A program made the translations under genes and the position numbers. Source: Tomocerus qinae (taxonomy: Eukaryota > Arthropoda > Collembola > Entomobryomorpha > Tomoceridae). Taken from it: a DNA stretch of 64,000 bases. The stretch is taken from NCBI GenBank assembly GCA_020055645.1, contig CM034547.1, forward strand, positions 59,336,909 to 59,400,908, in the 5' to 3' direction. Shown here in pieces: positions 18,564-48,618 of this stretch (within the stretch, counting starts at the first letter, position 1; each line of letters begins with the position of its first letter). Below the pieces are notes generated by a model. The model saw nothing but the letters and a program-made list of their open reading frames with translations, did no database searches and was not told where the DNA came from.

Positions 18564-21500
18564 TTACATATTACGGTTTGAATTCCCTGAAGAATAATCC
18601 CCCATTTTTTTCTTTAGTTGGGCCATTTCACTTTGTAAAGTCTGGTTTTCTTTTAGGAGCCCGCTTTGTTTAGAAAGAAGCTGGAAAATCTGCAAGGAGT
18701 AAATAATGAGAGGTCCTGGTCAGTGAGTGTTACTTAAGGTCGTTCAGTGCACTTAAAATACGCTAAACAGCAATCAGCATGCACATGCAGTGTGAGTACT
18801 ACAAAAATGAAATCGGGTTGCAGAGTTGCGCACCTTTCTATCACATTCTCAATCCTCTTCGCCCAATCTTGCAAATGACTGTTCAACTCCATTACTTGTT
18901 CCTTCCACTCATCATTACTGATTTTGGCACTTGAATCTTCTTCCGTTGTTGTAGGCAATTTTTCCTCTGTTTCTCCTTCAGGCTTTTCGTCTTTGCCAGT
19001 TTCTTCCGTGGTAACAGCACCAGTTTCCGGCTCGGCAGCGCCACTTTCCTCCTTCTCCTCTTTTTCTGGACCCTCGTCTTTTTCCTTTTGGTCATCTTTT
19101 GCTATTTCAGCTTCATCGACAGGCTTTTCGGCTTCTTCGGCCGACTTTTCGGCTTCTTCAACAGGCTTTTCAACTTCCTCGGCAGGCTTTTCAATATCCT
19201 CAGCCCGTTTTTCTTGTTCCCCTTCTCCGGTAATAGATGTGGTCGTTTCGCTTACTTGCGAAGGTTTCGTTTCAATTGAACTTTCTTCCGTTTTTGTTTG
19301 GGCAAGCCATTCGTTCATTTCTGTAAAAATGTCTACTAGTTCTTCCATTAGCAAACGTTGTTGCTCCAAAAATTCTTCATTTTCTGGGATTGAGGAAGTG
19401 AGATTATTTTGCAATGAGGCGACACAACTCTGCAACCCGTTCATCAAATCCTCCCTGAAAAAAACAAGACAAATAGCACAAGTAGTACCCTATCAGAGCG
19501 AGTTTTGTCATCTTCTTCTAATTTATGAAGACGGGAAGTCATCTGCTCGTGGCTGTTGGAATAAAATTGTACCCTCTGCTCCAATTCAACGCATTTTTCT
19601 TGAGCTACCTTATTGAATTGAGCTAGTTTATCTCGCTCCCCTTCCAATACAGTACGCTCTTTTCTGATGTAGCAGTAATTTATAACAAATCAGTCATTAA
19701 TTCACAAAAATTATTAAGTACATGTTCAATGTAATAATAAAATAAAATATGTTCATGAGCATGTTTTTCATTTGCATTATTGTTTGTAAAATGTAATAAT
19801 AGTTTGATTGTTTTGAAAATATGAATGTATCACACCACCAATTAGGTATAAATATGGAATTTACTTATATTGACGGGAGGTCTCTTCCAATTTATCAGTT
19901 AACATTTTACACTCGCTTCGCAATTTCTCCAGCAGATTGTTTTGGACTTGAATGAGATGTTCTAAGTCGGTCATATCTCGTGCTGAAATTAATTATTTTA
20001 ATAAATAATGTTAAATTAAACATAGTTTGCAGAAAACGTTACTAACTGAAATAGAAATATTTAACCTACAGATAAATAATAAATAATAAAATAAACCTTG
20101 AATCTACCACTTACAGTGCTTGTCTTCCATGTTTTGTATAATATTTACAACACTTGTATCCTGCATTTCAGGATTAGCCCCAATGTGTCCCTCCAAACGA
20201 ATCTTTGCTAGCGAAGCCTAATAATAGGTTTAAAAGTATTAATTTTCTGTAGTAGGTTGCAATTAATTGGATTTTTAGAAAAATCAGGGTATAATATAAA
20301 CTAAATATTTACTTCACGCTGGAGTTGTGACAAGTTTTCATTGAGCTTCACAATGATTTCTTGATTTTTTACCGCATCAACGTCCATCTGCTCTAATCGT
20401 CTGCGAAGTCCACTAATTTCAGCCTTTAAAACATAATGAAAAATAGCATCAACTGCACTTCCGGGAAAATTGTTTTGACATATTTGACAGCAGAACAGCT
20501 TATACATTGACAACGTTTGGTCAACACTTAATACAAAACTGCATCGACAATAGCAGAAATATTAAAGATGAAAAAATAATAAAACATTTAAAAGAAACCT
20601 GCAGGCGAACAGCTTCCTGTTTTCCATCTCTTTCCACTTTTTCGGAATTTAATCTTGCATTGATCAATTCTTGCTCTACGCTGCTCTTTTGACCGAGTGT
20701 GTGACTTAGCTCATTTTGTAAATGACCTGTAATAAAATTTTGTAATTCAAAATTATGAATCATCTTTTATGTTGTAGGTCAAACTACACTACTAGTCTTC
20801 AATAAATTGATTAGGAAATTACCCATTTTGATTTGCATTTCTTGCCTAAGATCTTCAATAGTACTTGATTTCTGTTGAAGCTCGCGTTTTAAATCTAATT
20901 CTACGCGTTTTTGCCTCTCCAGATCAAGACGAGCTTTAGTCAGTGAATCCATTTCTTGGTTCATCTCGTTATTCAAATGATCAATTTCCTGCCTGAACTT
21001 CTTTTCAACTTGCATTTTTTCTTCATGAAGTCTTCTTGAATGCTCTTGAATCATATCTCGAACTCGCTTCTGATGCCTGTCCAATTCCTCTTTTAAACGA
21101 CGTGTCTCCATATCGCTCTTTTAGATTAAGAAGATAATATAATTATTAGAGTTCGCTAAAGGAACTTACAATTTACATATTATTCCAAAGAGAGAGAGAG
21201 AGCTATAAAATATGAAAATAAGAAATATGTTGCTTGCCTGAGCCTTTTCCATTTGCATTTGTTCAACAATCTCTAAGCTGCTTTTTACTTTCTTAGCTGC
21301 ATCAGACTCTCTATCTCTGAGGTCACTGACCATGTGTTTTAGTTTGGACATTGTATCCAGCAAGTCATCCTTCTCTCTAAAAGGTAGTTAAATAATTAGT
21401 TGTTGAGAAAAACGATAACTTGTATTAAAAAGGAATCCACATAATAGAAGAAAATAACCACCTGACTAGTTTTTCGATCTCTGAGCGATGAAGATCGCAA

Positions 21501-27500: not shown

Positions 27501-28600
27501 TGCTCTTTTAATTTAAACTAAGCTATACATACAGTAGTATGTGACAGTCCGTGAGTAAAGTAAAATATAAATTGATTCAATTGAATTAGGCTACATTCTC
27601 GGAGTTTTCCCACTATTTAAATGTAATTTACACCTCAGTTCGTCATCCTGGGGCATTTCGGGGGTGACAAATATACGTTATTAAGTCAAAAATACGGAAC
27701 AAATCGTGTGTAAAATAGGTACAAAAGCCTGAAAAACACTATGTAGAGTTTCTACTTTACTTGTTTTGCATAATATGTACATACAGTATACTAAGTATAC
27801 AATTGAATAGCACATTGATTTGCAAAGAACCTAACCGGTAGGAATGGAATCCCACTTATGGCTCTATGGTTTTTGAGACCAACAAAACTAAAAGTTTCGG
27901 CTTTGTATTCATTTAAAATAAAATATTGGACATTCCTCCTTATCCATTTTTAGATTCATGTTAGACCTTGATTCAGTTTACTATGCTACTTTAGGGCAAT
28001 GCATTTTTCTGTCTTTGCAAAAAAACTAATCTATTCCTTCACTATCTTTACTAAATTGCTGTGAATTAGTTAATGTGAGGATAGATTGGAATTTGAGAGT
28101 GTAGGTTGGCTATGTAGAAAAGTTATAGTTAATTGTAGTAATTCTAGTTGTACAAGAGTTCATGCACTTTGTAGATATTGACTACGTTGAGAAGGCATTT
28201 GCCATGACGCAAATCAAAAGGCTGAACTAAATGTAAGTAATTTACAGTTACTGCTAATCTCTGTATCTATTTAAGCTACATATTATTATAAATATTGTAT
28301 ATACTTAGTAGTATTAATAGTAATCTAAATCGCCTGTATAAACATGTAGGTAAAGGTTGTTATCATTTGGGGTTAGTGTGATATTTAATATGAATGAAGA
28401 GAACTTTACCTTTGCTGATTGAGGATAGGTGTAGACGGTTTGGAGCCGAGCTTGCGAAGGTTAAAAAATCCGTGAGGAGTAGATGTAGGAGATGTATTAA
28501 TTGGCAAGGCTGATTTTTGTTTGAAAGGAAATCGAAATCGTGTTGGTTTAGTTGGCAGAACAGTTTTCGTAGCTAATTTAGGAGATTCTTGATTTTTCAT
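18564..28600 (-). CDS. SDCCAG8: SDCCAG8 orthologue: centrosomal / basal-body coiled-coil protein
   Basis: Eleven minus-strand exons: 28600–28410, 22421–22256, 22165–21462, 21376–21238, 21117–20823, 20726–20599, 20423–20313, 20217–20115, 19982–19865, 19663–19489 and 18689–18564. All junction phases agree and sum to 752 codons with the TAA stop; human SDCCAG8 has about 713. The protein is almost entirely coiled coil after a basic Ser/Thr/Pro N-terminus. Family matches recalled from the human protein are the block GEYIAQLEKETKYSRNELST, IEKLVREKDDLLDTM (human IERLVKERDDLM), LLEKLRSECKMLTDKLEE (human FLTKLKEECCTLAKKLEQ) and the C-terminal IFQLLSKQSGLLKENQTL (human VQLLSKQNQLLLERQSL). Vertebrate SDCCAG8 works at the centrosome and ciliary base and is a ciliopathy gene (NPHP10/BBS16). 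The first exon is joined across a 6 kb intron on the basis of phase, a good donor, and the open frame between the acceptor and the ATG at 22384. That ATG is an alternative start. CEP170 lies head to head upstream. Confidence 0.9.
18734..19450 (-). CDS. Glu/Lys-rich heptad-repeat frame inside the last SDCCAG8 intron
   Basis: This frame of 236 codons from the ATG at 19444 (stop 18734–18736) lies on the SDCCAG8 strand, between its last two exons. It encodes a helical start (LVDIFTEMNEWLAQTK), then a strongly acidic middle with four 7-residue repeats of the type EKPVEEA, then a second helix (VMELNSHLQDWAKRIENVIE). The length without a stop and the biased composition argue for real coding. The human protein runs straight from the part matching exon 19489 to the QLLSKQ part with the same spacing, so this segment is not part of the ancestral protein. 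It could be a lineage-specific cassette or alternative terminal exon, joined in phase 0 through a 38-base intron. It could also be a nested gene. I do not recognise a family. Confidence 0.5.
   Translation of the reverse strand, partial: DLMNGLQSCVASLQNNLTSSIPENEEFLEQQRLLMEELVDIFTEMNEWLAQTKTEESSIETKPSQVSETTTSITGEGEQEKRAEDIEKPAEEVEKPVEEAEKSAEEAEKPVDEAEIAKDDQKEKDEGPEKEEKEESGAAEPETGAVTTEETGKDEKPEGETEEKLPTTTEEDSSAKISNDEWKEQVMELNSHLQDWAKRIENVIERCATLQPDFIFVVLTLHVHADCCLAYFKCTERP
19107..19196 (-). repeat. 21-base tandem repeat encoding acidic heptads
   Basis: About four imperfect 21-base units lie in tandem. On the minus strand they encode EKPAEEV, EKPVEEA, EKSAEEA and EKPVDEA. The unit equals one coiled-coil heptad, and the copies differ mostly by single substitutions, which suggests growth by unit duplication under coding constraint. 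Confidence 0.75.
21118..21237 (-). other. SDCCAG8: GC–AG intron of SDCCAG8
   Basis: The exon ending at 21238 is followed on the minus strand by GCAAGC instead of GT, and no usable GT lies nearby. The intron ends at AAAAG before 21117. Both sides are in phase 0 and the protein alignment is continuous (MEKAQ then SDMETRR). GC–AG introns are a known minority class that needs an otherwise strong donor, as here (CAG|GCAAG). The intron also holds a short AG run at 21189–21202. Confidence 0.65.
22422..28409 (-). other. SDCCAG8: First SDCCAG8 intron, about 6 kb
   Basis: This long intron runs between the N-terminal coding exon (28600–28410) and the exon at 22421. It starts with a good GTAAAG donor and ends with TTTAG. 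It holds AT-rich sequence, a short ACC run at 23385–23399, and only small frames of no recognisable content. It may carry regulatory sequence for the divergent gene pair. Confidence 0.5.
28410..28600 (-). other. SDCCAG8: First coding exon of SDCCAG8
   Basis: The exon starts at the ATG at 28600 and encodes 63 codons of basic Ser/Thr/Pro-rich sequence (for example LATKTVLPTKPTRFRFPFKQ). It ends at AG|GTAAAG in phase 2. The acceptor at 22421 supplies the missing base, and the frame then runs without a stop into MDWKKK. Vertebrate N-termini are poorly conserved in this family, so this link rests on splice phase and coding character rather than homology. Confidence 0.65.
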
Positions 28601-31139
28601 TTTCTAGTTGAGGAGCGAGAGACGTAGAAGCGTAGTTGGGAGTGGAATTCTTAAATTTCTGTTCGGAGCGGATTATAATAAAGCACAGTAAAAATTTTTC
28701 GCTAGTTTGGCTGTCCTCTGTGTATGTGGTCAAAATCTGGGAACAGTTGCTTTTATAAAGTTCTGACTATCGATCATGTAGAGTTTGTAAGTCTGCATGT
28801 AGTTGGTTAGTTTCATGTTTCTATCTTCTCCTTTGGTTACTGACGTTGTTAAAACTTATTTGATTACCTATAGTCCAGGACTGAATATATTGGAAGTTGT
28901 TATCATGTGAGCGTGTGATTTCTAGCTCTGCCATTGTCTAATCAGAAAATGCGGAGGAAGGTAACAAGCAACTGCTCAGGAGCATCGTTAGATACCTTCC
29001 TTGTACAATACCATATAATTTAACGTACAGATATATTTTTAGTGTTATGACTATGCTCTACGGTTGGATTTACAAGAAAAAGATTTTTTACGCGCACCGA
29101 GGATATAAATCGTCTACGATAAGTTTAAAAGATTTCAGAGATTTTGTTCAGTGTAAGGACAGAAGAGAAACGGAAGGACATAGGCTTAAGGTTTTCTGTA
29201 CCAGCCATTGCCCATCTCGAAACGGTTTTGTCGGCTAATTTACTACGTAGGTATTTGCATGGCACTTTAGTTGGCTGTCTGTTTCTTGTTAAACGATGGG
29301 TCAGTTTATTCGGTTTCTTATTACCCTGCCATAGTTTAAGTCATTTGATATTCATGAGAAAGAGAAGGACAGTGTGTGCTGAAGTTTTCGATGCAAATGC
29401 CGAGATGAAGCCAAATCACGTCCGTGTCCCATTCCCATTGATTATTGCTAATGGAATACCGGTGGCACGGTTTCTCACCATACAATTTCCTTCGACTCAC
29501 GCACTTTCATCTGCAAATATCACCACCTAAATGGAACAAAATAATGAGCTGATGATAGTTACTTTTGTCGATTACCAGATAGCTCACGAACTAACTGTGA
29601 GCAATGAGACAATGCAAAATCCTAACTACTACAATACATGTCATCTTCTCAGGGGATTTCTTAGACTTTTCTGCTCTTTTCTTGTCACTACTAAGACTTG
29701 TCTTGTCATAAAGACTTGATAAGTACTGCGGGCTCAGTGGACATATCGCACCGCATCTGCAACGACTTCGTGACGGGGCTTTTATGCATATTAGGAGACA
29801 CAGACTGTCCTTTTTATAGTGCAGATTTTCTAGATTAAAGACATAAATGGGATGAGCAAAAAACAGACTATTTATTAGTATGCATGTATGCATTTAATGG
29901 GACATGTCCAGTTTCTATAAAGTAGGATTGTAGATATCTACGTTGTGTACATACTAGATTGACTTACCTTGAGTAAAACCGATTGTTAGTTGACTTACTT
30001 AAGCAATGATTTGCAAAAGAGACATTTGTACGATATCAGAATGAAAAGAATTATTCTCAAGAACGTGAACGTGAGAGTTATAAATTGTCCTTCTTCAAGC
30101 TGACATTCTTGCCTCATAAAAACTAACTTCATGAAATATAATTGGCAATGAAAAGTTTTAAAAAGAGAAATAAAAGGAGAGAGTTAAAATTGCTTAAACA
30201 ACCAGTAGTGCTCGTAGTAAATTAGAAAATTGCACCTGCATCTACTATAAAGAGTGTAGGTTGAGTTTTTTTGAATATATTAATTGGAAACTTTTTCAAA
30301 TTGCATTGTGCATTCGTGATAAATATTATGGCTCACCTTTTCTGCCAGTGCAGTTCAATTTAACTGAAATAAATAGCAGCTTAGGAATGAAAAGAGTAAC
30401 AATTATGGATATTTAAGCACATAAATGGTTAAGTGCATACTATAATAGATTACTTAGAATAGGACTTAGCGTGCTATAATTATGATAACAACTTTTGAAG
30501 GTAGTGTTAGTAGGGTCATAAATGTAGACACACCATAAAAAGTGCACTGAATAAAATAATATTTGCCACTTTGCAATTTTGAACTATAATGCATGACTTA
30601 ATTGCACGTAGGCATAATGTATAAATGTAGTGGTGGCTAGGATTGGACCGTTCCTTTTTTAGCTTTCATGTTCATGGTGTTTTTCCAAATGAAAATAGTT
30701 TTAATCATTGTCAGCATTTATTTTGGGCTAATAACTCATCTAAGACCGTAGAAAGATATGAGCCTAGTATAGGCATGTGTTTATGTATGTAATATGGCAT
30801 GCCTGACACAATTAATATTTATGGATTTATGTGTTATTACGTGTATAATTATGGGAGGGAGTACTACTTGTTTAGTGTAGACCACTTGGCATATCATCAA
30901 GTATAAAATGTAATCCGATTTTTATTTAATCAAAAATTGACAATGATCTTAAATCATTCGTTTATCTCTAGTCTTTGTAAATGAGTTCTCTCACGCGACT
31001 TTACAAGCTTTACAATTTTTTATGACAGACAAACACAAGGAAGGATATTTTTATTTGTTCTAGCGTAAACTAGTCTGAAGTCATATAAGGCAAGAAAGGT
31101 ACGTCCTCTTAAGACACTTTGTAGTGATATATTTAAATT
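28601..31139. promoter_or_regulatory. Divergent promoter interval between SDCCAG8 and CEP170
   Basis: This spacer separates the SDCCAG8 start codon from the CpG-rich block that may begin CEP170. It should contain the promoters of both genes and the SDCCAG8 5' untranslated region. A plus-strand frame of 128 codons at 29144–29530 has a non-ATG beginning. Its later part (MRKRRTVCAEVFDANAEMKP) looks protein-like, but I recognise nothing in it and the opposite strand is also largely open. No TATA box or other motif can be assigned with confidence. Confidence 0.4.
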
Positions 31140-31302
31140 GTCGAATTCTAGAATCGCGAAAGCGAGTCAGTCGTCAGCCGCGCTCAATATGACACTCAAC
31201 GATATCATTGCCAAGTACTTGCAGAAAAAAGATATCGATACCTTTGCCCTTTAAACAGAGTTAGGCAGTCAGAGTGAATTATAGTAAAATGAATTTGTTA
31301 AG
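31140..31302 (+). promoter_or_regulatory. CpG-rich block, candidate CEP170 5' untranslated exon
   Basis: The block is dense in CG dinucleotides (for instance ATCGCGAAAGCGAGTCAG) within a CG-poor genome. It ends near AAG|GTAATT at 31302/31303, a possible donor. The first CEP170 coding exon has an acceptor (TTCTTTCAG, ending 31759), so a noncoding first exon upstream is expected. A 21-codon frame, ATG at 31189 to TAA at 31254, would then be an upstream open reading frame. Position and base composition support this; no transcript evidence is available. Confidence 0.35.
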
Positions 31303-31924
31303 GTAATTGTAAAGATTTACGACGAGTGGTTGCGCTTGTTAGCTCTCTGCATGTATAATCTATGTGTATACTTTTGTAACTTGCACACTGTGCAGCCTTT
31401 TCCATCTCTGCACTTTGCAAACTTTGCGTTTCCATCGTCGTTACTATAATAATTCTCTGCCACTAGTTTAAAGCCCATAGTAGGCAAAAGCAACTGACAA
31501 TGAGATATATGGAATCAAATAAGGTGTTTCGACTCAATGTCATTTTTCCTCTTACTTTATACTTGTTACTCCATGTACAAAACTACAAATTGTATTTTGT
31601 TATATGGTAAAACTTCATCGAATACAATTTGAACGTGTTTTTGACTATAGGCTAAAGGTAGAGGCTCAATGAACACCTGTATAGTGATTTAAGTCTATGT
31701 AAAAATAAAAATGAATGATATCCTCACAATTAAGTCAACTTGTCCTTTGCTTCTTTCAGGTCTTTTTACGTTCGTGGTGCTTGCATAACTGGCATTCTTA
31801 ATTCTGTGCTCCTCTGATTGTGAATCTGTGATGTCTGTTTCAACTTTGGTGTTTCAACATACGTTCAATCCTCCTCGCTCTTTCCCTGCTCACGTTGGAA
31901 AGCTTTTCCACAATAACTTTTACA

Positions 31925-34900: not shown

Positions 34901-37900
34901 GTGGGATAACACGACAGGACATAATGTTAATCTATATTTATCCTCTGGTAAATACAAGTTGGCATTTTGTCATCTAGAGTAAACGTAGAAGCAGGAGCTG
35001 CAAACTGCAATGCAATGCGAAATGTAGTGCAAAACTAAAGAATCCATTTTATTATAGAAAGTGTAAACACCGTATTTAATAGTTTATACAGCTTCTATTA
35101 TCTTTTGTCTATATTTCACTGCAGTATTTGTTTAGCTTGGTTTCAGGCATTAGGCCATTTAATGTAATTGCGTACTTACTACAACGGAGTAGAAATTCCA
35201 TTTAATCTTTAAGGTTGGCTCGTTATTTTGCTGTGATGTGCAGTAATGTTGATAGCATAAGACATTAAAGTTGTGTTCCGTTCCTATTCTGTCAGTGAAG
35301 TGTGTGGATTATACAATGCAATTTGTTGTCCTTATAAAACTCGATTAATTGTGAGATTTTTGGGTATCGTATTTTACATACGTAAGTACTATAAAATATT
35401 AAACGTATTAAGCTGTTACGTTAGAGAAGTCAGCAATTCTTAGCTAATGGCTTATCGGGGTGGCGAAATTGGAGACGTAGAGAGGTCATGACCGTACACC
35501 TACAACATTACCTATTGAGTAAAATAACTAGGACTTTATAGGTCTTATATTAATATATTTCTTATTATTATTCTGTTTGTAAAGCATTAGCAACCGTGGG
35601 ATGTGCTTTTGGAGCTTTGAAATATCTGTCCGTGAGCACCCAGAGTATACGCAACCTTCTTTAGGAAAGCAAAGCACTTGTTGTTAATATTCATAAGACA
35701 TGTCATAATCATAGTTATCTGTCTGTACTACGTAGTAGAAATTCTTAGGCTTTTTTTGTGAATTTATCCGACCCACTGGGTACATTTTTAAAGAAAGCTA
35801 ACTAAGCCTAGCCAATAGAAAGATTAGGACATGTGTTGTTTTCGGGAATCCGGTTTTGTCATCCCTACAGACGGGCGTGTTCTACTTTCTATAGCTCTTA
35901 GTTGGACTAATGGAAGATATGTACTTTATTGACACATGAGACCCAATTGTTAGCATTATGGAGATTACAAATTGCCAAATTGTAAATAGAATTGCACAAG
36001 GAAAGACCTTGCCTGTTGATTTGCAAATTACAGTCTGTGTCTTGTGCCTTGTCTCATATGCAGCTGTAATATTGCTCTATGTACATGACATGGTGCTTGT
36101 GAGTTACATGTCGGTAGTAAGTACCTGTATGTAGTTAGCAAGTTGAAGAAGTGCTAGTACCTATATTTATATGGAAGCAAAGGTAGTACTACATTTACAT
36201 GTTGTCTATTGCATTCTAATAGTATTTGTGAATAGAGATCTGCTTGCTATTTGTCTGTAAGAAGGATTTATTTGTTGTTAAGGATGGGTGTCCCACTCAA
36301 TTACTTCAACCAACCACTCATTTTGTTTTTTTGATCATGTAAAGAACTTGGTCGACTGGTCTGCATTCTTTTAGGTTTGCTGTTAGTTTTGTGCGACGAA
36401 GCTTACACCTCACATCTTTAATCAGTCTTTGCTTAATCTTAATCCGTTGGACTGTTATCTCAGTTTAATGTTTTTGTAGCAGTAAACCAGAGTTTTATTT
36501 AAATTATCAAAGGAAAACGTTGACGTTTTGTAATTGACTATACTCGAGGATAGTCTTAGTCAAATTAAGTTTTCAACAGTTTGAGTTGTCACTTCGGGTG
36601 ATCAGTATACTTTTGTTACAACATTCATTAGTGTCATCAGCGTTATCATGGGTCTGAGACGCGGCAATAAATTTATGGAAGACCAGTTGGAGTTTTTATC
36701 AGAAGGGTATACACAGGAGATAGCTGTTATACCTAGAAATATAGTGCAAGAGAGGAGGAAACGTCTTGAGAAATTGTTCGGAGGAGCAGCCCCTATCAAA
36801 GCATCTGAGGCTGACACTGATATTCCACATAAATCAGAGGCTGAAACTTCCTTACCTGATAAAGTTACGAATGTTCTATTTATTGCTATCCTGAAATCAG
36901 GAAACACTTACGTTTCCTTTTAATATACATATAAAATTCATATAGTACCTATATATAGACTATAGACACATATAGGTTGATGGGTGATGTTTATATTAGC
37001 ATGTGAATGTTTTCCCAGCCACACTTACAGTCCATAGAGTGTATAAATAGCTCATTTTGTGACCACAGACAGATAGCAGATAGTCATACTTAACTTGTGT
37101 GTAAAGGTATGTGATGCAAATATGCAATGTGCGATTGTAGTGTAATGAGTCATTGAAGATTAGATAGAGCAGATGTAGTTTGGAGAATACTTTTAAAAGT
37201 AGTACGTAACACACCAGAATAAACATCAAAAATACCAAAGTGCTTATGCTTGCTCCTGTATGTAATTATATCATAATTATATGAAACGACTACATGAAAT
37301 GGCAAAGGATTATGAAAAGGAACAGATAGGGTATTGTGGCTTTGCTACAGATTGGGTATACAGATTAGGATAGGATCTATGCTAAAATTGTTAATTAAAT
37401 TACCTTTACTACCTGCTTATGTATTTGCTATCTACCCAGGTTTTTAACTGATATATTTGAATAGTTTATATTATGTAGTACAAATATATAACTTACGTAG
37501 GTATAATAATAATGTAGGAAATAGCGCACAACCCATAAAATGTGAAGTGTGTTCTTTACGTTGTGAACAGCAGTAGCAGTGTATTACTTATGTTGTAGGA
37601 TATACCAACATTGCCTTTTTATGAGATTATGAGACTTGTTCCTCTTGAGTGAGTACTCATTCATAATAAGTTAACATACACGTCCTCAAGTCATGAATTC
37701 ACATTAGTATGCTTACACAGACACATTTCACTGTAAACTAAAGGATTAAAAGCTCTTGAGTCAGAATGCACATCTAATCTCCACGCGTTTTTATGCAACA
37801 AGTATAAAAATTTGTGTAATTTTTTAATTGTGTTGCACCATTTTACACGGAAAAATTCGACGGGCGAGTGAAGGGTTGATGTTTTGCAATTATAATATTA

Positions 37901-40900
37901 AATGTTGGTAATATTTTTTGGTTTCAGTCTCCAAGTGTGGAAAAGCGACACGCAGTCTTGTGCTTTGATCCGCAGTCGGAGTGTTTCACAGTTAGAGACC
38001 TGAAAACAACAAATGGGGTAAGCAGTCTAATTTTTTTGCGATGTGTGTTTTACTTGTCGTGTTCTGTTTGTCTGCACTAAAATATCTATTTAACTTTGCA
38101 AAGAGATGATAGTAACACTCTACGGCGTGATTCTGAGTTCAGTGCCAAGTTTGTAGTCTCTATATAAAACCACGTCGGAACTGAAGGGAAATTGAGGAAA
38201 GCTTTCAAGTCATAATGTATATACATGTTAAGCTAGCGTAAATGAAGCCTTGAATGAGTTCCAGCAAATATTTTGGTTAAAGTGAGTTTTAACTGAATGA
38301 GAGTATCTCACGAGGCTGACCTGGTTTTCTTGTCTTTGCAGACTTTTCTCAACAACCAACGAATAGGAGCAGATCGTCCCGAAAAGCTGGGCAACATGGA
38401 TCTTCTACGTTTTGGTTATGATATCCTTTTGTGCGTTTAATTCTGCGGTTTGTCTGCGTTGACATAATTTAATTTAAGATGTTGCATACAGGGCAAAGCA
38501 ACAAGTTCTGCTAAATAGATAAGTTCAACAGTTGAGTGTCAGGGAGCATTTAACAGCTTTATTTAAAGCGAGATTCGCTTAGAGATTATAATAATATTTA
38601 GGCTCAATTACAAATTACAGTGTGCAGAAAACTTGTGTGTTCCCTATTGTGTTGAGTTGAGTGATTCAGTTATGCAAGTCTATTTCTATAGTGAGGCAAA
38701 GGAAGAGGGAACCCATTAGGTTATTTATGATACATTGCAAGGAATTCTTCTAGTGTCGAGTCGAGTGTTGAGGCGATTAGTAGTTGTGTGTAATTTGTTT
38801 GGGGTTGTCGAACGAACAACGACGAGCTGTAGAAAATCTGTGTCTTAGGGTTGGAAAAGGAGACTCGTCGAGATTTTTGAGAGGTTTTCTTAAAGATTTC
38901 TGAAGCAATTGATTTTCTTTATTTACGCATAGAATTTTACAGTACGTTACGACAGAAGTTTTACTGTCTGTGGCTCTTATTGTTCCCCTCTCACTTGACA
39001 TTATTCTTTCTCGTGTGGCTAGCTCTTTAAGTGCTCATTTCATTGGATTGTATTGTATATTGTTAGTGGAGAGAATTGTGTGTTGGCTGTGAATTTTGAA
39101 TGCATGAGTTAATTTCCTGTATCATTTGGAGGGGATTTTTTCTAGCTGCACTCACCTTACTCTCCTTCTATTTTTTGTTCGCTACTCGTTTAGTCCGTAA
39201 CACAGACAGACCGTACTTACACATACTTTGTCAGTGCTCTGTTCAGTTTGCTATCTGCACTAATGGTAATCGTACTAAAGCTAAGTCGAGTGTCTGTCTG
39301 TAGTACTTTAGATAATATTTTGCTGGTAAATAGTAGTGCACTATAGAAGAGTAAGTATGCCGTAACGTAATAAGTTAAGGGCTCTGAATAACTTACTGAT
39401 TGCAAGTTGCAGCAAGATGCTTATGCTTACTACTTACTATATAGTGTATATTATAGTAGTGAGTGAGTTAAGTATATAACTTCATTACTTACGGTCCCTC
39501 AAACATTCTTACTAACTTCACCGCTTTATATAATACAGCATAGCATGACTTGCTGGCTACACACAGAAAGAACAAGAGTCATTTCAATTGCCTGGCTTAT
39601 TTTAAAAGACAAGTTAGTGGAACCATTTCCAGTTATGAGCAACATACCATTGTAGCGTACAGCTGAATCTTGAATCAGACTTTTAATTAAAGCACAGAGA
39701 GAGACAACTGAAAAGTTTACTCAAATCATCAACATTTGCAGTTTATATTCAAAAATATACCAATTGAAAAGTGATTGTGTTTGTTTACATATTATTCTGA
39801 GTCCGTTATCTCTTTGTGGTTTACGTTTAATTGCCCATGTTATTGTGTACCAGACTCATTGCAAATCTATTTGTTTTAGACAGGGTGTTTTTTGTGTTTA
39901 CATATTACGTAACGTTTACACTCGATTCTGTATAATTCAAATCAACAGGCTGATAGATTTAGTGAGAATGAGAACTAGACATGTATTTTTAAACTGTGTA
40001 GATAGTATTTACAAGAGTGCAGGTGACAGGAGGAGATAAAAATCAACGAGATAAAATAAATATATGGTAATGCAACCAAAAGTTTCCAAAAATTTTCCTT
40101 AACTGGTACATACATCCCAACTTGTATGAAATTCGTTCTGGGATTGGCAATCGTCCGGCAGCTGGGGCCGCGGCCTATGATAACTTTGAAAAAGTGACCA
40201 GTGCGGCTTGTGCAAGTGTCAACTCCTCTCCCATTAGTGATCACGACTCGAACATCATACCTGAACGTTTCTCTCATGTGATGCAGGTCAGTTAAAATTT
40301 ATCGTAGATATTAACTCCGTGTTCTTAATGCTAGATTTCTTACGTCAGTAAAGAAAAATACTTACGTACACGAAAGCAAGTAATACGTAAATTTTAGTGT
40401 GTGGGAGGATTACTCTTACTCGTTTCTCTGCTCATCCTCTATCCCACTCCCACATTCCTTTTGGTAGGTAAGAATTCGTTAGCGACGAGACGACACAAAG
40501 CTAACTCATAAATCCTGAGAGCCAACAAGGTTTGCAATTTCTTTTATTAGTTTTTCATGGTTTGGAATTGTGTCGAATCTGCTCGTTTAAATTGGATTCT
40601 TCAGACTCCTACCTCCCTGTCTCGGTTTACGCGTGTATTTTTTACTGTAATGCAATGAATTTAGAGCGATTGCTCTTTGTTGATAATGTGAATATTTCCT
40701 TATGTAAAAGACCATAAAATATTTCGGTTTCACTCATATGAGGCATCAAACATTGTAAACTAACGGAAATAAATGTAGCCAGCCAACCGGAAGTTACTCA
40801 GAGGATGTCACGCTAAGCTCTGTTTGCTCACTTACTTAGAAGCCAGTATATTTTACGTGTTGTGTGTATACATGGTAGTAGTAGTAGTGTGCAGTGGGTG

Positions 40901-43900
40901 AACAAACTAGGAGCACAACAACGGATGAGCGAACGAAGAAGCGTACAATAATCATAATAGGACATGTACAGATACCTTCACATAATCATATACCCTCTAA
41001 CAAGCATGCAGGTTATATATCAGTTCACGGAATTGTACAAAGGTGAGTTTTGCGTTGGTGGAGAGTAAGGAATAAGCAGAAGAGGGATGGCAGTGACAGC
41101 AATTGTGTTATTAAAGCAAGTGGTGATACTAGAAAAATTAGTATTAATACAGAGATACGTATTGTTAATTCCCATTCCGTCTTGAACGTCTTATCGCTGC
41201 GTAGAATCCTTCCTTCTCCTGTTAAGTAGAGTGATTTGGTTCGATATTCCCATAATGTAAATGAATTGTTTTTTTTATTTACTGTTGACTGTGGCAAGTT
41301 TATTACGAAAATGATAGTTTTATACCGCTAATTAGTTGTTCTACATTTATTTGTTTACAGAGTCATCGAGGGAACAGTTTGGGAGGAAGTCGAGTTTCAT
41401 CACCGTCATTGACCTTGGACAGTGGACACGGTTCCAGTTCTGCTCCTTCCAGTCCCGCCAAAGAAATGAGTCCTGTTCCGAATTCAACGTCTTCCAATAG
41501 CTCTCCCCAGTTTCACAGACGAATGAAACAGACTGACATTTACCGGAGAAATTCCCACAAGTTAAATAGTGAAGTGGTGAATAGTGTTTTGTTAGATGTT
41601 AATGGTGAGAATGATGGAGCGACGACAATAAGAAAAGATTCCCTGGAAGATGAGACTGAGGATAATAATGTGCTTCCTAAAACAGCCAAAGACCGTGAAG
41701 CGTTTCTCGGTAGTTTGGAACCTGACATAAGTGTGCCAAATGAAGTTTTCCAGCCTCAGTTAGTAGAACAGATCAAAACCGGTACAAGTACGAGTACGAG
41801 TTCGACAAAAACATCATGCATTTCAAACGCATCAGGTACACTATAAAATAACAATTATTTTATAAATAGCTAGATTTTGTTATGTACCTAAACGTGTCTG
41901 CCTTGAATCAACCTTAGAAACTTTTGTGTAGTAGATACCTAAATATAAGTGGTGCTAGTTGTTTTCTAGTATTCTAGTTATTTATTCCGCTTTAGAGCTT
42001 TTGGTGGCTTATCTAGTTAGGTTCTTATAATTCTGAAGTAATTACAAGGCTGGATGCTATTTTCTCATACAAAAGAAACGGGAGTTGAGTAGTTTGGTTA
42101 TCTTCGCTTCCTTTGCTTACGTTCTGCCTCCTTACTCAATGATAAATCGTAAACATTTCTTGACGTAAATGCCCCTTTTCAACTTGACTCTTGCAACTGA
42201 TTTTAAGCTGTCTTGCAATGGTTTATGTACACGTTGTGAAACTACTTAGGTATACTCTGTCTGACCTAACACACTCTAATAATGTGCATTTTCAAGGAAC
42301 TTGAATTTGAGATGCAGCCAGTGTGCACTAACTTACCTGGTTTTGTAAATGAATGTTTGAAAATGCTTAGGATATGGTCTGAGACTGGTATGGAATGCAA
42401 GTTGCAACTGCTGGTTGAGTGGAGTTTGTTTTGACTATTTAGGACTCTGACACGTGTACAAAAGGCTTCCTTATGAGTTTTCTCGTTCTGTTCTAAAGCA
42501 GATACGTCTTGTCGTTATTCTTATCTGCAGTTATTCTGGTGCGGGTTTCAGCGCTTTTTTGACTTACCAACCCCAGCACTCATTGCCTCGTGATTAGTGG
42601 TTACTTTTTACTTGATGTACAATGTTTGAGAAATGATCATTTCAACTCTTCACTTCTTTCTAAGTAGTTTTTCCAGTTTTATATTTCCGTCGAGCTCCAT
42701 TTGCAATATTAAGTATTGACGTAATGAATTGAACTTTTTCCCCATTTTCTAACAGCTTAGCCACAGTAATTTGCTCTACAGCTAGTTTTTTTGTATCTTT
42801 CACCATTTTATGATCCTTTATTACTTTATGATGCTTGTGCTGTAAAAATGTTTCTAACTAATCCGCAACCGCAAGCCAATAATAGTGTAATTGCTCGCAC
42901 TTTGCAACAAATGTCAAGACAGATAAATGCACTTTTTGCACTGGTTTGGTTTTATTTCAGAGAATTCAGAAGTGATGTCACGATCACGCTCATTTAGTGG
43001 TGGTGGGTCAAGTGCACTCTCTCCTTTATATGGTACACCCCATTGGTGGCCTGATGAAGAAAAGTTTTCTTTAGATGATGACAACCATAGTCACTTGAGT
43101 CATATTGGGAAATCTCGCTCTGAACCTAAAGGTAAAGTTAATAATATTTTGGCATACAAGAAGCGTCATCAAATATCTCTTGTCAGCGCATCTAACAATA
43201 AGTGCTAAGTACATGCTGTGTGATACAATAACAGTGGATGTGTATTATAGTGTGATGTGTGTACATTTGTCATTTTCACTAACCAGAGTTCTTTGCCCTT
43301 TGTTTAGTGGATGTATCTATTAAAGTATATATATATAGTGTACAGTTGCAATTTATCTTCATTTAGTATCTAAAGAGATATAAAAGTGACGGAGAGCATG
43401 GCGTGTAGTAGGAAAGTAGCAATCAGCATTCACGATGTATCTAGCTATACATACACTGTCGCATGTTTTCTTTCACCCTAGTTTCTTCTTCTAGGTGGGA
43501 CGCTCATAGTTCACAATAGACCGTCAGTAAGCAATTTCTGACGATAAATCGTGTCCATTTTAAAAAATTGTTTTTGCTAATGGAATTTAACCATGTGCTC
43601 TGATGAATGAAATTGGAAGGGACTGACAGGACATGATTCGTAGGTATACTACGTAATTTATAACATATTATCAAAGATTACTAATATTCCTACTTGTTGA
43701 TGATGATAGATATATCATGTACAATTGTTGATTTTAATGATGAAGAAAACTCAATTTTCTTATCAGATAGGCCTTTGTTAACAACTCAGTTGAACGTATT
43801 ACGCTCACTCTGGCGAATTCCTATTATGATTGTGCAAAATGAATTAATGAATGGGTGCAATTACTACAGAAAAGCGATGATCATTAGATAGAAGATACCC

Positions 43901-46900
43901 GATGCAAGTAAATAAGCTATGCTATAATATTAGTCTGTTATTAACCTATAGTAGATAGAGATAGTTAAACCCAGTAGTAGTATTTGGTGTTATGTTTACA
44001 GTGAGAAGATGAATTGACATGAAACAGCCACCTAAAGCAACAGCCAGCGTGTAATCACGTCCACAATTTTTGTAGTTACTAACTCGTAGTATCTGAAGAA
44101 CATGAAGTTTTTATAAGCTTTTAGTGGTGATAAGACTATTTGCCTAACATAAGTACCTATGTTAGAATTGTTAGAAAAAGATCGCTGTTAAGAGTTAGAT
44201 GTTCCGATCTAGCAGCGATAAAATTGTTAGCGCAATGCCTTAATGGTTAAGTAGAACTTTAAAAAGCGAATAATGCAATCATCTGTTTGTGATTTAGTGT
44301 ATTTTCTTGGATTCTGTCTGTAGGGTTTATTTGTAATGTATGTGTTATTATTTTGTATGCGTGAACCAATTAGATGAGGTAGATGTAGTTAGAAGGGAGG
44401 TAAATAAGTTTGTGTCGTTCTTTGGTTGAATGTATAATGTGGGAGATACGTTTGAAATTTTGTACATTGAGTTTGTTTATTTATACTAATGTTTCGCATG
44501 CGAATACAGAATAGTGTCTGAGTATCTGTAAAAAAAGTTTGTGTACTTAAAATATGCTTAGAAACATGTTCGATAACATGAAAAGGTGAGTGTGAGAGCA
44601 ATTTTGTAAGTTTAGTAGAGTTTTATATGAAGTTTGGATGAAAGAGCTGAACCTTATCATCCAGTCATGCCAGAGAGTGCATAATTTAACGAGGTATATA
44701 TAACTATAGGTTGTATTTGTGTACTTACATGTCTCTATCACATCTCATAAGAGTTAACGTTGCAATTCACGTAGTTATTACATTCTCTTGTTAGAGAGGT
44801 TATCTAATGTAAGTCAGTGTGATATGTTGTGGTCTTGTGTTGGATACAGAATACAAAACTGTGAGTGTGAGCTGTTGTTTTCATGCTTCTCGTTACTTTT
44901 GATTAGAAACTCCACCCTGAAATTAAAACTTTCGTTTTTACTTGCACTGAAACAAAGTTTTGGTGTTCTTCTGTGGTATTCACTCATTTTCATTGAGGGA
45001 AGTGTCAAGAGTAGATGTCTGTAGATTAGGCTCTGGTCGTAATTGGGAAAATGTGAGGTGAACAGAAAAACTCTGGTTTTGACATGTCTAAATCCACAAG
45101 GTGTATCGCAGTTGGTGGTCACAAAAGTTTGGGTGACAGTCGTGTTGAAAAGTTGAATTCAGGAGTTCGTAATAAATCATCTGTAGTGAGTAGCAGTAGA
45201 GTGAGGAAACTCAGTCGCGGGGCAAGCCGAGTCCTTCTCAATGTTGTCTTAGATAGCAACAACAACAATGAAAGTAAAAAAAGGATTACCTCGGTTTCTG
45301 CTGGTCATTCATTTAATTTGTTGACTAATGTAATGCGTGTTATTGGTTTCTTGCAGATGTCCTCCAGACTGAGATTGTACAAGAGAAGTTGGACGGCGAA
45401 AGCAGCATAAGTTCGGAGAAGGAACAGAGTTTAAAAAGTGATTCGGATTCTGTGGGAAGCAAAAAAATGTCTCCCATGGCTTTCACGGTTGATTTTGGAG
45501 CGACGAATACGAGTACAAGTTGCACAAAGAAAATGTTTGGTATCACCGACAGTATTAGCAAATTTGCCCCCAGGCATCGACGGAACTTCAGCTTAACGAA
45601 AGTAGAAGAGTTATCAGGGAAGGAAAAAGAGAATCCAGCCCCACCACCAGCTGATAAGAAAGAAACTACTCCGACACCAGCTCCAGCCCTAAATACACAA
45701 CCGAAATCTCATCAGAGAAAGCCTAGTCTAGGAACTGAAAGCACGATCCCTAGGCTTTGTCCTCCGGCATCTGTAAATAAATCGTCAGTTGATAACTCAA
45801 CTCCTCCTAGTGTTAGTAATTCGACGACTCCTCCTGCTAGAAGACCGCTTCATGAATTACCCAGTCGGAAACTGAAATCTGTCAAACCAAGACCCACTAG
45901 TATGCCTAGCTGCTCAGTTTCTCCGCCGAAACTGCAACAAGTTTCGAAGGTTGTGACAACTACTGAGGTTGTGAAAGATATTTGCAACAACGATCTTTCC
46001 ATTGATATTAAATCCTTAGCACTGGATCTGCCTGTAGTCCAAGAATGTAAGCAGCTAATAAACGACGTTAGTGAAGTGAGTCCTGTGACTGTAGATGTAG
46101 ACGATACAACGAGTGAAACAGGGACATATACCATTGAAAAAGATGCTCCTGAAGTTCAAACTGCGAGAAAGAATATAGACAATGTTTTCGGGATGGAAGT
46201 TACCAACAATGTCAAACCTACAAAGCTACCTATTCCGGAAAAGTGTAACAATAGTCTTGGAACTGGAACCCCTGGTTGGGTCAGGGAATGGGCTGAGTTG
46301 GCAGCTCAACAGCATCAACAAGAGGAATGTGTGGGTAACAGTGGTAAGTTAAAAATGACGTACTTGGTGTTTTGTAATGATGTCATAAAAGTTGAGTACT
46401 TACTGTGGGTTTTAATTTATAGAACTGCATCCGGTTTCTGAGACGCAATTCTTCCTTCGCGAAACGGAGAATGTAGTGTCGGCTATGCAAGAACGTGTGA
46501 CTCAGCGATTAAGCAACAACAACAGTACCCACAACTCAGACTCCGATGATGAAGCTACATTGTCATACAGTCCTCCAAAACCTTTAGCCCAAACCAAACC
46601 TGTGGATAAGAAACGTACTTTAATTAGAACAAGTCCTATGCCAAGGGAAGCATCTGTACTCTCGGATTCAGGATATGCTTTGGGATACCAATCTGATAGT
46701 TCCAATGAAGGATCCCACGAATTCAAAAATACTACTATGCCAGTGAAATACAATAAAGCATTCAGGTAGTTCACCATTCAGATTCGTTGTTCCATATTGT
46801 ACATTGTAATCATGATGGTATCTTGTGAACTTATGAAGTAATACAATATTGTAGAAGGGTGTAGGTTGTGTTGATATTATTTGATTGGAGATTACATTAT

Positions 46901-48618
46901 GGTTATGTGATGATGGTTTGTATAGCATCAGAAGAACTCGAGTTGTTGGATACGAGTCAGATGGATGTGCAACCGTAATGAATCGGCAGAGCATGACGTT
47001 ACCTGTGAGAGGAGTCTCTCCAAGACCGCAGCCAGGGAGCATGAACATTCCTACCCCAGCATCCCTCTTCATGAGGAGTGATGGTGGTAGGTTTAGCTTG
47101 CGAATGCCCAAGTCAAAATCCCCCGTGAATCAGGTGAGTCGTCGGTGGCATGACTACACTTTGCAAACTTACTCTATTCTTAGACTCTTCTTTCTGACTT
47201 CTATCAAGTGGTGAAGGAATCTTGACGATTTATTTTACTCGAGAATCATTTTGTATTGAATGTATTTCATCGCGCATTTTTGTAAATTTTATCTATTTTG
47301 ATCCCTTTTTTAGATGGCTCCTCCACCACAGGGAAATGTGTCCTCGAATAAAGCAAATGCAAGCAAAAGTGACCATCCTGTTAACAAGAAACAACAAACA
47401 CCGCCTGGAATGAACAGGAAACCTCCAGTGGGTAGCAGAAGTAATTCTAGTTTGACTGCAAAAGAAGTGGAGCTAGCTAATTGGAAACGTAGAAAGAATT
47501 ATGATCCTATGAAAGCAGCTGCTGAGGCAAAGAAAGGTGGGAAAAAGGCACAATCTGGAACAGAAAGTGCGGCGGAAGAAAATAATGTTTCGATGTCAAG
47601 GTAAATAGATTCCCTTGTTGCATTAAGATACAACTTAAACTTTACAAGTTTACATCGCACGGAGTATTAGAATATTAATCAGTAAGTAACTTAATTGAAA
47701 TTCAGATTTGTCCCTAGTAGAGTCGGTCAAGGAGATATGTCGTCAATGATCAAGTCAACATCATTCCATGGTGGCTACAACGGAATAAATTCTGAAGAAG
47801 ATGATATTATGTACGTTGTTGATGAGATGGAAAGCTCGCATTCTAATTCTCCCAATCATCTCGTGATGAGTCGATCTCTTCATGAAGATGGCATATATTA
47901 TGGGATTTCTCATCCGAGTTTGCGTCCAAAGAATAAACTCGAGGTACTTGCATCTGAACTTGCTATTATTAGAGCTCTAAAAAGTAAATGTTATGTTGCA
48001 GTTTTTCTTAATTTGTGTCATGATTTTATTTTAGGCTTTGGACAATTTGGTGATAGCTACCATTCACAGTTTGTCTGTCAAAGTGAGAACTGCGTCTCGT
48101 CAACTTTTAGAAAAACTGCAGTACGTACTATAAATATTTTTTTACCCCCAGAATGTAAATGTAAACAAATTACACGATGATAGTACTGTTTGTTATACTA
48201 CGGGCAACATTTATTTTGCAGAGTGCAGCATTCAAACGATGAAAATGGTGCTCTGTTAGAAGAAATGGTATCTCAAATTAAAGATTTGGAAGCTTTAAGC
48301 AATGCTTCATCTCCGAACAAAAGCCCATCCCGTGAGTTATCTGGCACATTAAAAAATCTCAAGAAAATGGAGCAAGTTATTTTGGGTGAGCTATTATTTA
48401 TAAATAAAGCTATAGGTATCTCCTGCAGCATGTGTATGAATTAATCTCATTTATGATGCAGTCCAAGCATCGGTCTTAGTTTTATTACCAGGCTTACTTA
48501 CTTTTTATTTCCTTATTGAAGAATTTCGTTAAAATTGTAATTACAGAAAGCTATTAATTTTTTTACAGTTTTGGATCGTGTTTTATGTGATGACTTGGGA
48601 TCTGATATGAACGCTTAA
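31925..48618 (+). CDS. CEP170: CEP170-family centrosomal protein (FHA domain, mother-centriole appendage)
   Basis: Fourteen exons: 31925–32095, 37928–38017, 38342–38430, 40202–40286 (start uncertain), 41361–41835, 42961–43131, 45357–46343, 46423–46765, 46926–47133, 47314–47600, 47706–47943, 48035–48120, 48222–48385 and 48569–48618. Phases close to about 1148 codons including TAA; human CEP170 has about 1584 residues. An FHA domain fills residues 20–117 (GREKCD, SVEKRHAVL, TTNG then TFLNNQRI, LRFGYD). LYGTPHWWPDEE near residue 326 matches human LYGQPSWWGDDE. GTYTIEKDAPEVQTARKNID near residue 615 matches human [38 protein letters not shown] near residue 1050 matches human DNLLLSSVFQFSKKIR. The remainder is Ser-rich and probably disordered. 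Vertebrate CEP170 is a subdistal-appendage, microtubule-associated protein. The start is the first in-frame ATG of the FHA exon. An AATAAA follows at 48934. Confidence 0.92.
32096..37927 (+). other. CEP170: First CEP170 intron, 5.8 kb
   Basis: This is a phase-0 intron with donor GTACCT and acceptor GGTTTCAG. It is AT-rich and carries one unusual frame at 36648–36923, described separately. Apart from that frame I see no gene, RNA or repeat that I can support. Confidence 0.6.
36648..36923 (+). CDS. 91-codon frame of unknown function in CEP170 intron 1
   Basis: The ATG at 36648 has an ideal start context (A at −3, G at +4). The frame encodes a charged, helix-prone peptide: MGLRRGNKFMEDQLEFLSE, then NIVQERRKRLEKLFGG, then an acidic Ser/Ala stretch and a hydrophobic end. 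Composition is less AT-driven than in the surrounding intron. A weak donor (GATAAA|GTTACG, phase 0) inside it would be in phase with the CEP170 exon at 37928, giving an alternative N-terminus lacking the first FHA strands. It could instead be a nested one-exon gene. I do not recognise a family. Confidence 0.35.
   Translation: MGLRRGNKFMEDQLEFLSEGYTQEIAVIPRNIVQERRKRLEKLFGGAAPIKASEADTDIPHKSEAETSLPDKVTNVLFIAILKSGNTYVSF
38777..39001 (-). CDS. 74-codon antisense frame with KEN box in CEP170 intron 3
   Basis: This minus-strand frame starts at the ATG at 39001 (A at −3) and stops at 38777. It encodes a basic Ser/Thr peptide with NKENQLLQKSLRKPLKNLDE followed by SPFPTLRHRFSTARRCSFDN. A KEN box followed by RxxL-like elements is the usual degron arrangement of proteins destroyed by the anaphase-promoting complex, such as securins and cyclins. 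Human securin also starts with VDKENGE. The match is too short to claim homology. A minus-strand AATAAA (TTTATT at 38558–38563 on plus) lies about 215 bases past the stop, and CCAAT occurs upstream near 39045. It may be a nested gene, or one exon of a longer gene. Confidence 0.35.
   Translation of the reverse strand: MSSERGTIRATDSKTSVVTYCKILCVNKENQLLQKSLRKPLKNLDESPFPTLRHRFSTARRCSFDNPKQITHNY
40080..40286 (+). other. CEP170: CEP170 exon 4, uncertain 5' boundary
   Basis: The 3' boundary (ATGCAG|GTCAGT, phase 0) is firm, and PERFSHVMQ resembles human KHEKFTIQLQ just after the FHA domain. Two 5' boundaries are possible. The acceptor at 40201 fits the phase-2 end of exon 3. An acceptor near 40080 would add a segment with NLYEIRSGIG, which recalls human NLFTVVQGE, but its phase does not match. 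I used 40202 in the gene model on phase alone. Confidence 0.6.
40874..40888. repeat. GTA trinucleotide repeat
   Basis: A short run of GTA triplets lies in CEP170 intron 4. No other feature is attached to it. Confidence 0.75.
43132..45356 (+). other. CEP170: CEP170 intron 6 with a Ser/Arg-rich frame near its end
   Basis: This 2.2 kb phase-1 intron is mostly AT-rich, with a short TA run near 43325–43338. From the ATG at 45084 a Ser/Arg/Val-rich frame (SSVVSSSRVRKLSRGASRVL) runs through the acceptor at 45356 into the next exon, in a different reading frame from CEP170. It has no other support and may be chance or an alternative 5' exon. Confidence 0.3.
47706..48618 (+). other. CEP170: C-terminal helical region of CEP170
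   Basis: The last four exons encode the conserved C-terminus. After LRPKNKLE comes [20 protein letters not shown], then a helix with MVSQIKDLEAL and LKNLKKMEQVIL, and finally VLDRVLCDDLGSDMNA. Human CEP170 has SSVFQFSKKIRQSIDKT and ILQELKRVEKQLQAINAMI at the equivalent place. In the human protein the C-terminal region is linked to microtubule and centrosome binding. The donor after KLE (GAG|GTACTT) was preferred to a later GTAAAT because only it keeps the homologous frame. Confidence 0.85.

Follow-up and report, generated by a model that had tools for sequence, protein, structure and literature searches.

In human, SDCCAG8 is a coiled-coil scaffold of the centrosome, the satellites and the ciliary base, and CEP170 is an FHA protein of the subdistal appendages of the mother centriole. 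The two human genes are divergent, with starts within about 1 kb of each other; ADSS lies near this locus at 1q43-q44, and a second human gene, CEP170B, is not known to have an SDCCAG8 partner. In a human copy-number table the genes are listed in the order PLD5, LOC731275, CEP170, SDCCAG8, AKT3 (PMC6395382), and the description of one deleted human region names PLD5, CEP170, SDCCAG8 and AKT3 together (PMC9528098). For rainbow trout Omy20, a variant table puts akt3a first, at 28.045 Mb, followed by sdccag8, with entries at 28.206 and 28.224 Mb, and then by cep170aa at 28.270 Mb (PMC12058032). The Drosophila gene CG45105 has been described as orthologous to SDCCAG8 (PMC9552441). In a comparison of 49 animal genomes, dense ancient blocks of three or more genes were described as more coexpressed (PMC8851819). 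No account of the conservation of the SDCCAG8-CEP170 pair, or of a shared promoter, was found in the open-access literature searched. The Irimia 2012 study of microsynteny may list the pair.

In the window, by which is meant the whole stretch of 64,000 nucleotides of Tomocerus qinae DNA that was analysed, SDCCAG8 on the minus strand and a CEP170-type gene on the plus strand adjoin head to head. Both genes were rebuilt from splice signals and reading phase, using a splice matrix built on approximate frequencies, and the rebuilt models returned the loci and strands given in the first-pass annotation. The bounds assigned there also coincide with the models, 18564 and 48618 being the final bases of the SDCCAG8 and CEP170 stop codons, respectively, and the divergent first coding exons, previously placed 3.3 kb apart, were found to have 3,324 bases between their start codons. 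The features of the locus are as follows.

28601..31924, no strand: 3,324-base gap from one start codon to the other, longest open frame 133 codons
18564..28600, minus: SDCCAG8 gene, 11 coding exons, 751 aa, phases closed, CCCAP match, single locus in the genome
28600-28410, 22421-22256, 22165-21462, 21376-21238, 21117-20823, 20726-20599, minus: SDCCAG8 exons 1-6, phase-closed model
20423-20313, 20217-20115, 19982-19865, 19663-19489, 18689-18564, minus: SDCCAG8 exons 7-11, phase-closed model
28410..28600, minus: SDCCAG8 first coding exon, 191 bases, with an in-frame stop just upstream of the ATG
31925..48618, plus: CEP170-type gene, 14 coding exons, 1171 aa, all phases closed, one terminal stop, single locus
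31925-32095, 37928-38017, 38342-38420, 40114-40286, 41361-41835, 42961-43131, 45357-46343, plus: exons 1-7 of the CEP170-type gene, phase-closed model
46423-46765, 46932-47133, 47314-47600, 47706-47943, 48035-48120, 48222-48385, 48569-48618, plus: exons 8-14 of the CEP170-type gene, phase-closed model
31925..40286, plus: exons 1-4 of the CEP170-type gene, encoding its FHA domain at the N terminus (matched by Pfam over residues 46-112)
38421..40113, plus: intron of the CEP170-type gene that reads as U12-type AT-AC, inside the FHA domain, between exons 3 and 4

No other gene was recognised between the two starts. The gap contained no tRNA and no Rfam match at the gathering score, and neither of its two frames of at least 100 codons gave a Pfam match over the cut-off; the 133-codon open frame (29129-29527, plus), itself without a Pfam match, is of a length reached by 6 of 300 base shuffles. 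Repeats around the gap amounted to weak pairs only. Beyond the other end of SDCCAG8, an exon of a RhoGEF-domain gene (14985-16355, plus; RhoGEF E 5.5e-26) lies tail to tail with it, the best PDB matches of this exon being intersectin 2, and a 117-codon open frame without a Pfam match (17287-17637, plus) stands between the two.

The identity of the minus-strand gene as SDCCAG8 is regarded as firm on the basis of its predicted protein. When spliced, this protein matched Pfam CCCAP, the SDCCAG8 family, with an E value of 3.6e-38 and 131.8 bits (cut-off 27). The match fell in two stretches, the best of which covered profile positions 238-701 of 703, so that the identification made in the first-pass annotation is upheld by a curated cut-off passed over most of the profile. 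Among the four families listed for this model, the next came at an E value of only 0.065. A search of the 334 Mb genome (115 contigs) with CCCAP exon by exon gave one match, to the large exon of SDCCAG8 (profile positions 109-160, E 2.5e-6; three candidates scored), and all 11 matches of the SDCCAG8 protein to the genome fell inside this gene. Further agreement was seen with three stretches of human SDCCAG8, their letters approximate, each of which aligned better than all 500 shuffles. No PDB relative of the model was found at E values up to 0.01.

The first coding exon is the least certain part of the SDCCAG8 model. Its donor scores 7.2; the junction with 22421 is in phase, though the acceptor there is weak (3.0), and its frame has no Pfam match of its own; it is also the exon implied by the 3.3-kb spacing reported previously. 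Elsewhere in the gene, the intron at 21237-21118 (minus) is of the GC-AG kind, with the donor GCAAGC following the exon that ends at 21238. In the last intron, a glutamate-rich frame of 251 codons (18737-19489, minus) with a 21-base tandem repeat inside it lies between an acceptor scoring 10.2 and a donor scoring 9.1. This frame does not share the phase of the exons on either side and gave no Pfam match over the cut-off; it is possibly an alternative exon of SDCCAG8.

The plus-strand gene is probably the orthologue of CEP170, as judged from its predicted protein. An FHA domain was recognised by Pfam with an E value of 1.8e-16, and the PDB comparison, which returned seven sequences at E values up to 0.001, placed human CEP170 (4jon) at the top with 1.7e-18 and the second match at 3.7e-10, a lead of eight orders of magnitude among these seven. 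Outside the FHA domain, the whole model was aligned to stretches of human CEP170, the human letters being in part approximate, and the scores were compared with 500 shuffles made from the residues after position 130. Four of the five stretches beat all 500 shuffles: three of the four from the middle of the protein, and the C-tail, which aligned at a score of 62 against a shuffle maximum of 56. The remaining middle stretch was reached by 399 of the 500. The motifs PLYGxPxWW, GTYTIE..ARKxIDxVFG and WVxxWAxLAA of the model are collinear with those of human CEP170. A further landmark, the Pfam family CEP170_C (PF15308), was dropped, as it gave no match here in the exon-by-exon search (in which 14 control genomes were equally silent), none in the spliced model at E values up to 0.1 and none in the last 342 residues at E values up to 10. 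The earlier identification as CEP170 thus finds good support in the FHA domain and the collinear motifs, and none in CEP170_C; for this reason, the gene is labelled CEP170-type and treated, with reserve, as a probable orthologue.

Failure to find CEP170_C, together with 25 FHA exon matches found elsewhere in this genome, would also fit a gene for some FHA protein other than CEP170. We consider this very improbable, however, given the wide margin by which human CEP170 leads the PDB matches, the motif stretches that match human CEP170 in order, and the presence of SDCCAG8 as the neighbour. Confusion between paralogues is likewise unlikely for either gene of the pair, since each protein has one matching locus (13 of 13 genome matches inside the CEP170-type gene and 11 of 11 inside SDCCAG8). 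As all 13 were at one gene, no second CEP170 was seen; this search gives Tomocerus qinae one CEP170 locus, in contrast to the two genes, CEP170 and CEP170B, of human. Within intron 1 of the CEP170-type gene, an open frame of 112 codons was noticed (36585-36920, plus), which has the protein-like start MGLRRGNKFMEDQLEFL and no Pfam match.

U12-type introns are marked by a 5' site of the form ATATCCTTT and by a branch site, TTCCTTRAC, close to a 3' end in AC. The intron at 38421-40113 begins with ATATCCTTTT, carries the branch-site-like TTCCTTAAC at 40095, about 11 bases before its 3' end, and finishes in AC, and it resembles the minor introns in its AT-AC ends, its ATATCCTTT donor and its TTCCTTAAC branch site. 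Counted on both strands of the window, the donor pattern and the branch pattern each occurred twice, and just this one pair stood in the right order. The junction of exons 3 and 4 is in frame and reads FGYDPNLYEI, aligned to human FGYDTNLFTV. A weak GT donor (1.9) was also tried as the end of exon 3; this left exon 4 with no acceptor, and the AT-AC reading closed the frame. With donor, branch site, AC end and in-frame junction all found, the intron reads as U12-type AT-AC, set against GT-AG alternatives that were enumerated in part. A U12 snRNA match is present in the genome, on another contig (C4:24100530; 84.7 bits, cut-off 53).

Conservation of a wider block around the pair was considered and rejected, the matches of ADSS, AKT and PLDc_3 not being local; the pair stands without them. 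AKT (PDB match human AKT2, 2.7e-47) was located at C2:65.42 Mb, on the same contig as the pair and 6 Mb from it, and ADSS at C2:46.99 Mb, 12 Mb away (eight matches, all in one place). Of three PLDc_3 matches, two were at C4:27.6 Mb and one at C2:69.66 Mb, 10 Mb from the pair. Because C2 makes up 21.5% of the assembly, linkage of AKT and ADSS on it is weak evidence. Two kinases lie closer to the pair on C2, namely S6K, at 60.00 Mb, and one at 59.81 Mb that looks NDR/LATS-like by eye. Among the genes looked at, just SDCCAG8 and CEP170 are kept locally. In the wider genome, at least 114 matches were obtained for the cuticle domain Chitin_bind_4, which point to an arthropod, and one weak match for the odorant-receptor type 7tm_6 (E 8.6e-6), a faint hint that the lineage has few insect odorant receptors. 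No telomere-like array was found in the first 1,500 bases of the five contigs examined (140, 72, 52, 34 and 24 Mb).

The arrangement in Tomocerus qinae is like that at human 1q43-q44, where CEP170 adjoins SDCCAG8 too, and it differs in what follows SDCCAG8, namely AKT3 in the human table and the RhoGEF gene here, with AKT 6 Mb off. As to the prior claim that the two are divergent neighbours in human, the adjacency, as distinct from the orientation, is documented by a table in which their entries are consecutive (PMC6395382). Conservation across animals, as claimed in the first-pass annotation, is a wider statement than Tomocerus qinae, human and trout can carry. In the Omy20 table, sdccag8 and cep170aa are likewise consecutive entries, in a listing that may skip genes between them; it gives no orientation, and akt3a, unlike AKT here, is still beside sdccag8 (PMC12058032). 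Neighbours kept between a protostome and vertebrates are also the substance of the ancient metazoan microsyntenic pairs and blocks (PMC8851819), from which the present case differs in that those blocks are of three or more genes and SDCCAG8-CEP170 is unnamed among them in the accessible part of that source.

Taken with the papers on human and trout, the identities, strands, spacing and single loci found here make it probable that SDCCAG8-CEP170 is an ancestral microsyntenic pair, inherited from the common ancestor of arthropods and vertebrates. SDCCAG8 and the probable CEP170 orthologue would already have been divergent neighbours in that ancestor, and no rearrangement would have become fixed between them since. 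The other possibility is that the pair was assembled independently in this lineage and in vertebrates, and a comparison of this genome with human and trout leaves some room for it. Two events would then be needed, however, each giving the same adjacency and orientation, for which we infer a chance of about 1 in 30,000 for two given genes in one orientation (an estimate based on 15,000-20,000 genes, somewhat weakened by the fact that the pair was picked after being seen). That one divergent adjacency should have arisen twice is therefore highly unlikely, which makes common descent the best reading.

Why an ancestral pair should have stayed together is less clear-cut. The adjacency may have remained unbroken by luck alone, without shared control, an explanation compatible with common descent and one to which we give slightly less than an even chance. 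It is in keeping with the 3.3 kb between the starts, with X-box matches that are not above chance, and with the scattering of the other relatives of the human locus along the same contig, as drift within a chromosome would produce. Against luck stands the loss of AKT, which is beside SDCCAG8 in the human and trout tables, from its side while the pair stayed. With one locus only, constraint and luck are indistinguishable. The first-pass annotation had instead proposed a shared promoter or co-regulation. On such a reading, which is equally compatible with common descent, both genes would be driven by a bidirectional promoter in the gap, active in cells that divide or carry cilia. Such a promoter would suit the divergent orientation, the related cell-biological roles and the distance of no more than about 1 kb between the human starts, and the higher coexpression reported for dense ancient blocks of at least three genes (PMC8851819) points the same way, although that result is background and does not bear on SDCCAG8-CEP170 itself. 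We nevertheless regard it as rather unlikely, as the start codons are 3,324 bases apart and neither the CpG pattern in the gap nor the X-box matches favour it. The CpG observed/expected ratio in 500-base bins was 1.11 at 29000 and 0.99 at 31000 and 0.55-0.63 in the three bins between, with a window mean of 0.72; raised bins at 29000 and 31000 with low values between would, if anything, indicate two promoters. The RFX X-box was rejected as a sign of ciliary co-regulation. Allowing one mismatch at most, the form with a 2-base spacer was found nowhere in the window (3.1 expected) and the form with a 3-base spacer twice (3.3 expected), at 31480, in the gap and with one mismatch, and at 44027. For a stricter pattern that was allowed up to three mismatches, the count was 23 where 41 were expected, and the gap had none.

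A compact bidirectional or shared core promoter is thus not indicated, and the proposal of co-regulation is so far unsupported. Retention of the ancestral pair would then come down to regulatory sequence, whether in the gap or within the long first introns, or else to luck. Should a cause other than luck be at work, it is most likely that breaks between the two starts are eliminated for cutting one or both genes off from regulatory sequence. From the roles of the human proteins, SDCCAG8 and CEP170 would be expected together in cells that divide or bear cilia. A more elaborate proposal is that a regulatory region common to both genes has kept the pair together from the bilaterian ancestor onwards, matching the supply of a scaffold of the ciliary base to that of an appendage protein of the mother centriole, and that CEP170 output is in addition adjusted when the minor spliceosome removes a U12 intron of equal age from the FHA domain; we hold this conjunction to be unlikely.

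The meaning of the pair depends on which of these accounts holds. If it is both ancient and constrained, CEP170 and SDCCAG8 could both be disturbed by human 1q43-q44 variants that touch the stretch separating them, and the pair would offer a test case for whether parts of centriole and cilium are co-regulated by way of gene order. A pair that has simply escaped breakage would serve as a marker of slow rearrangement.
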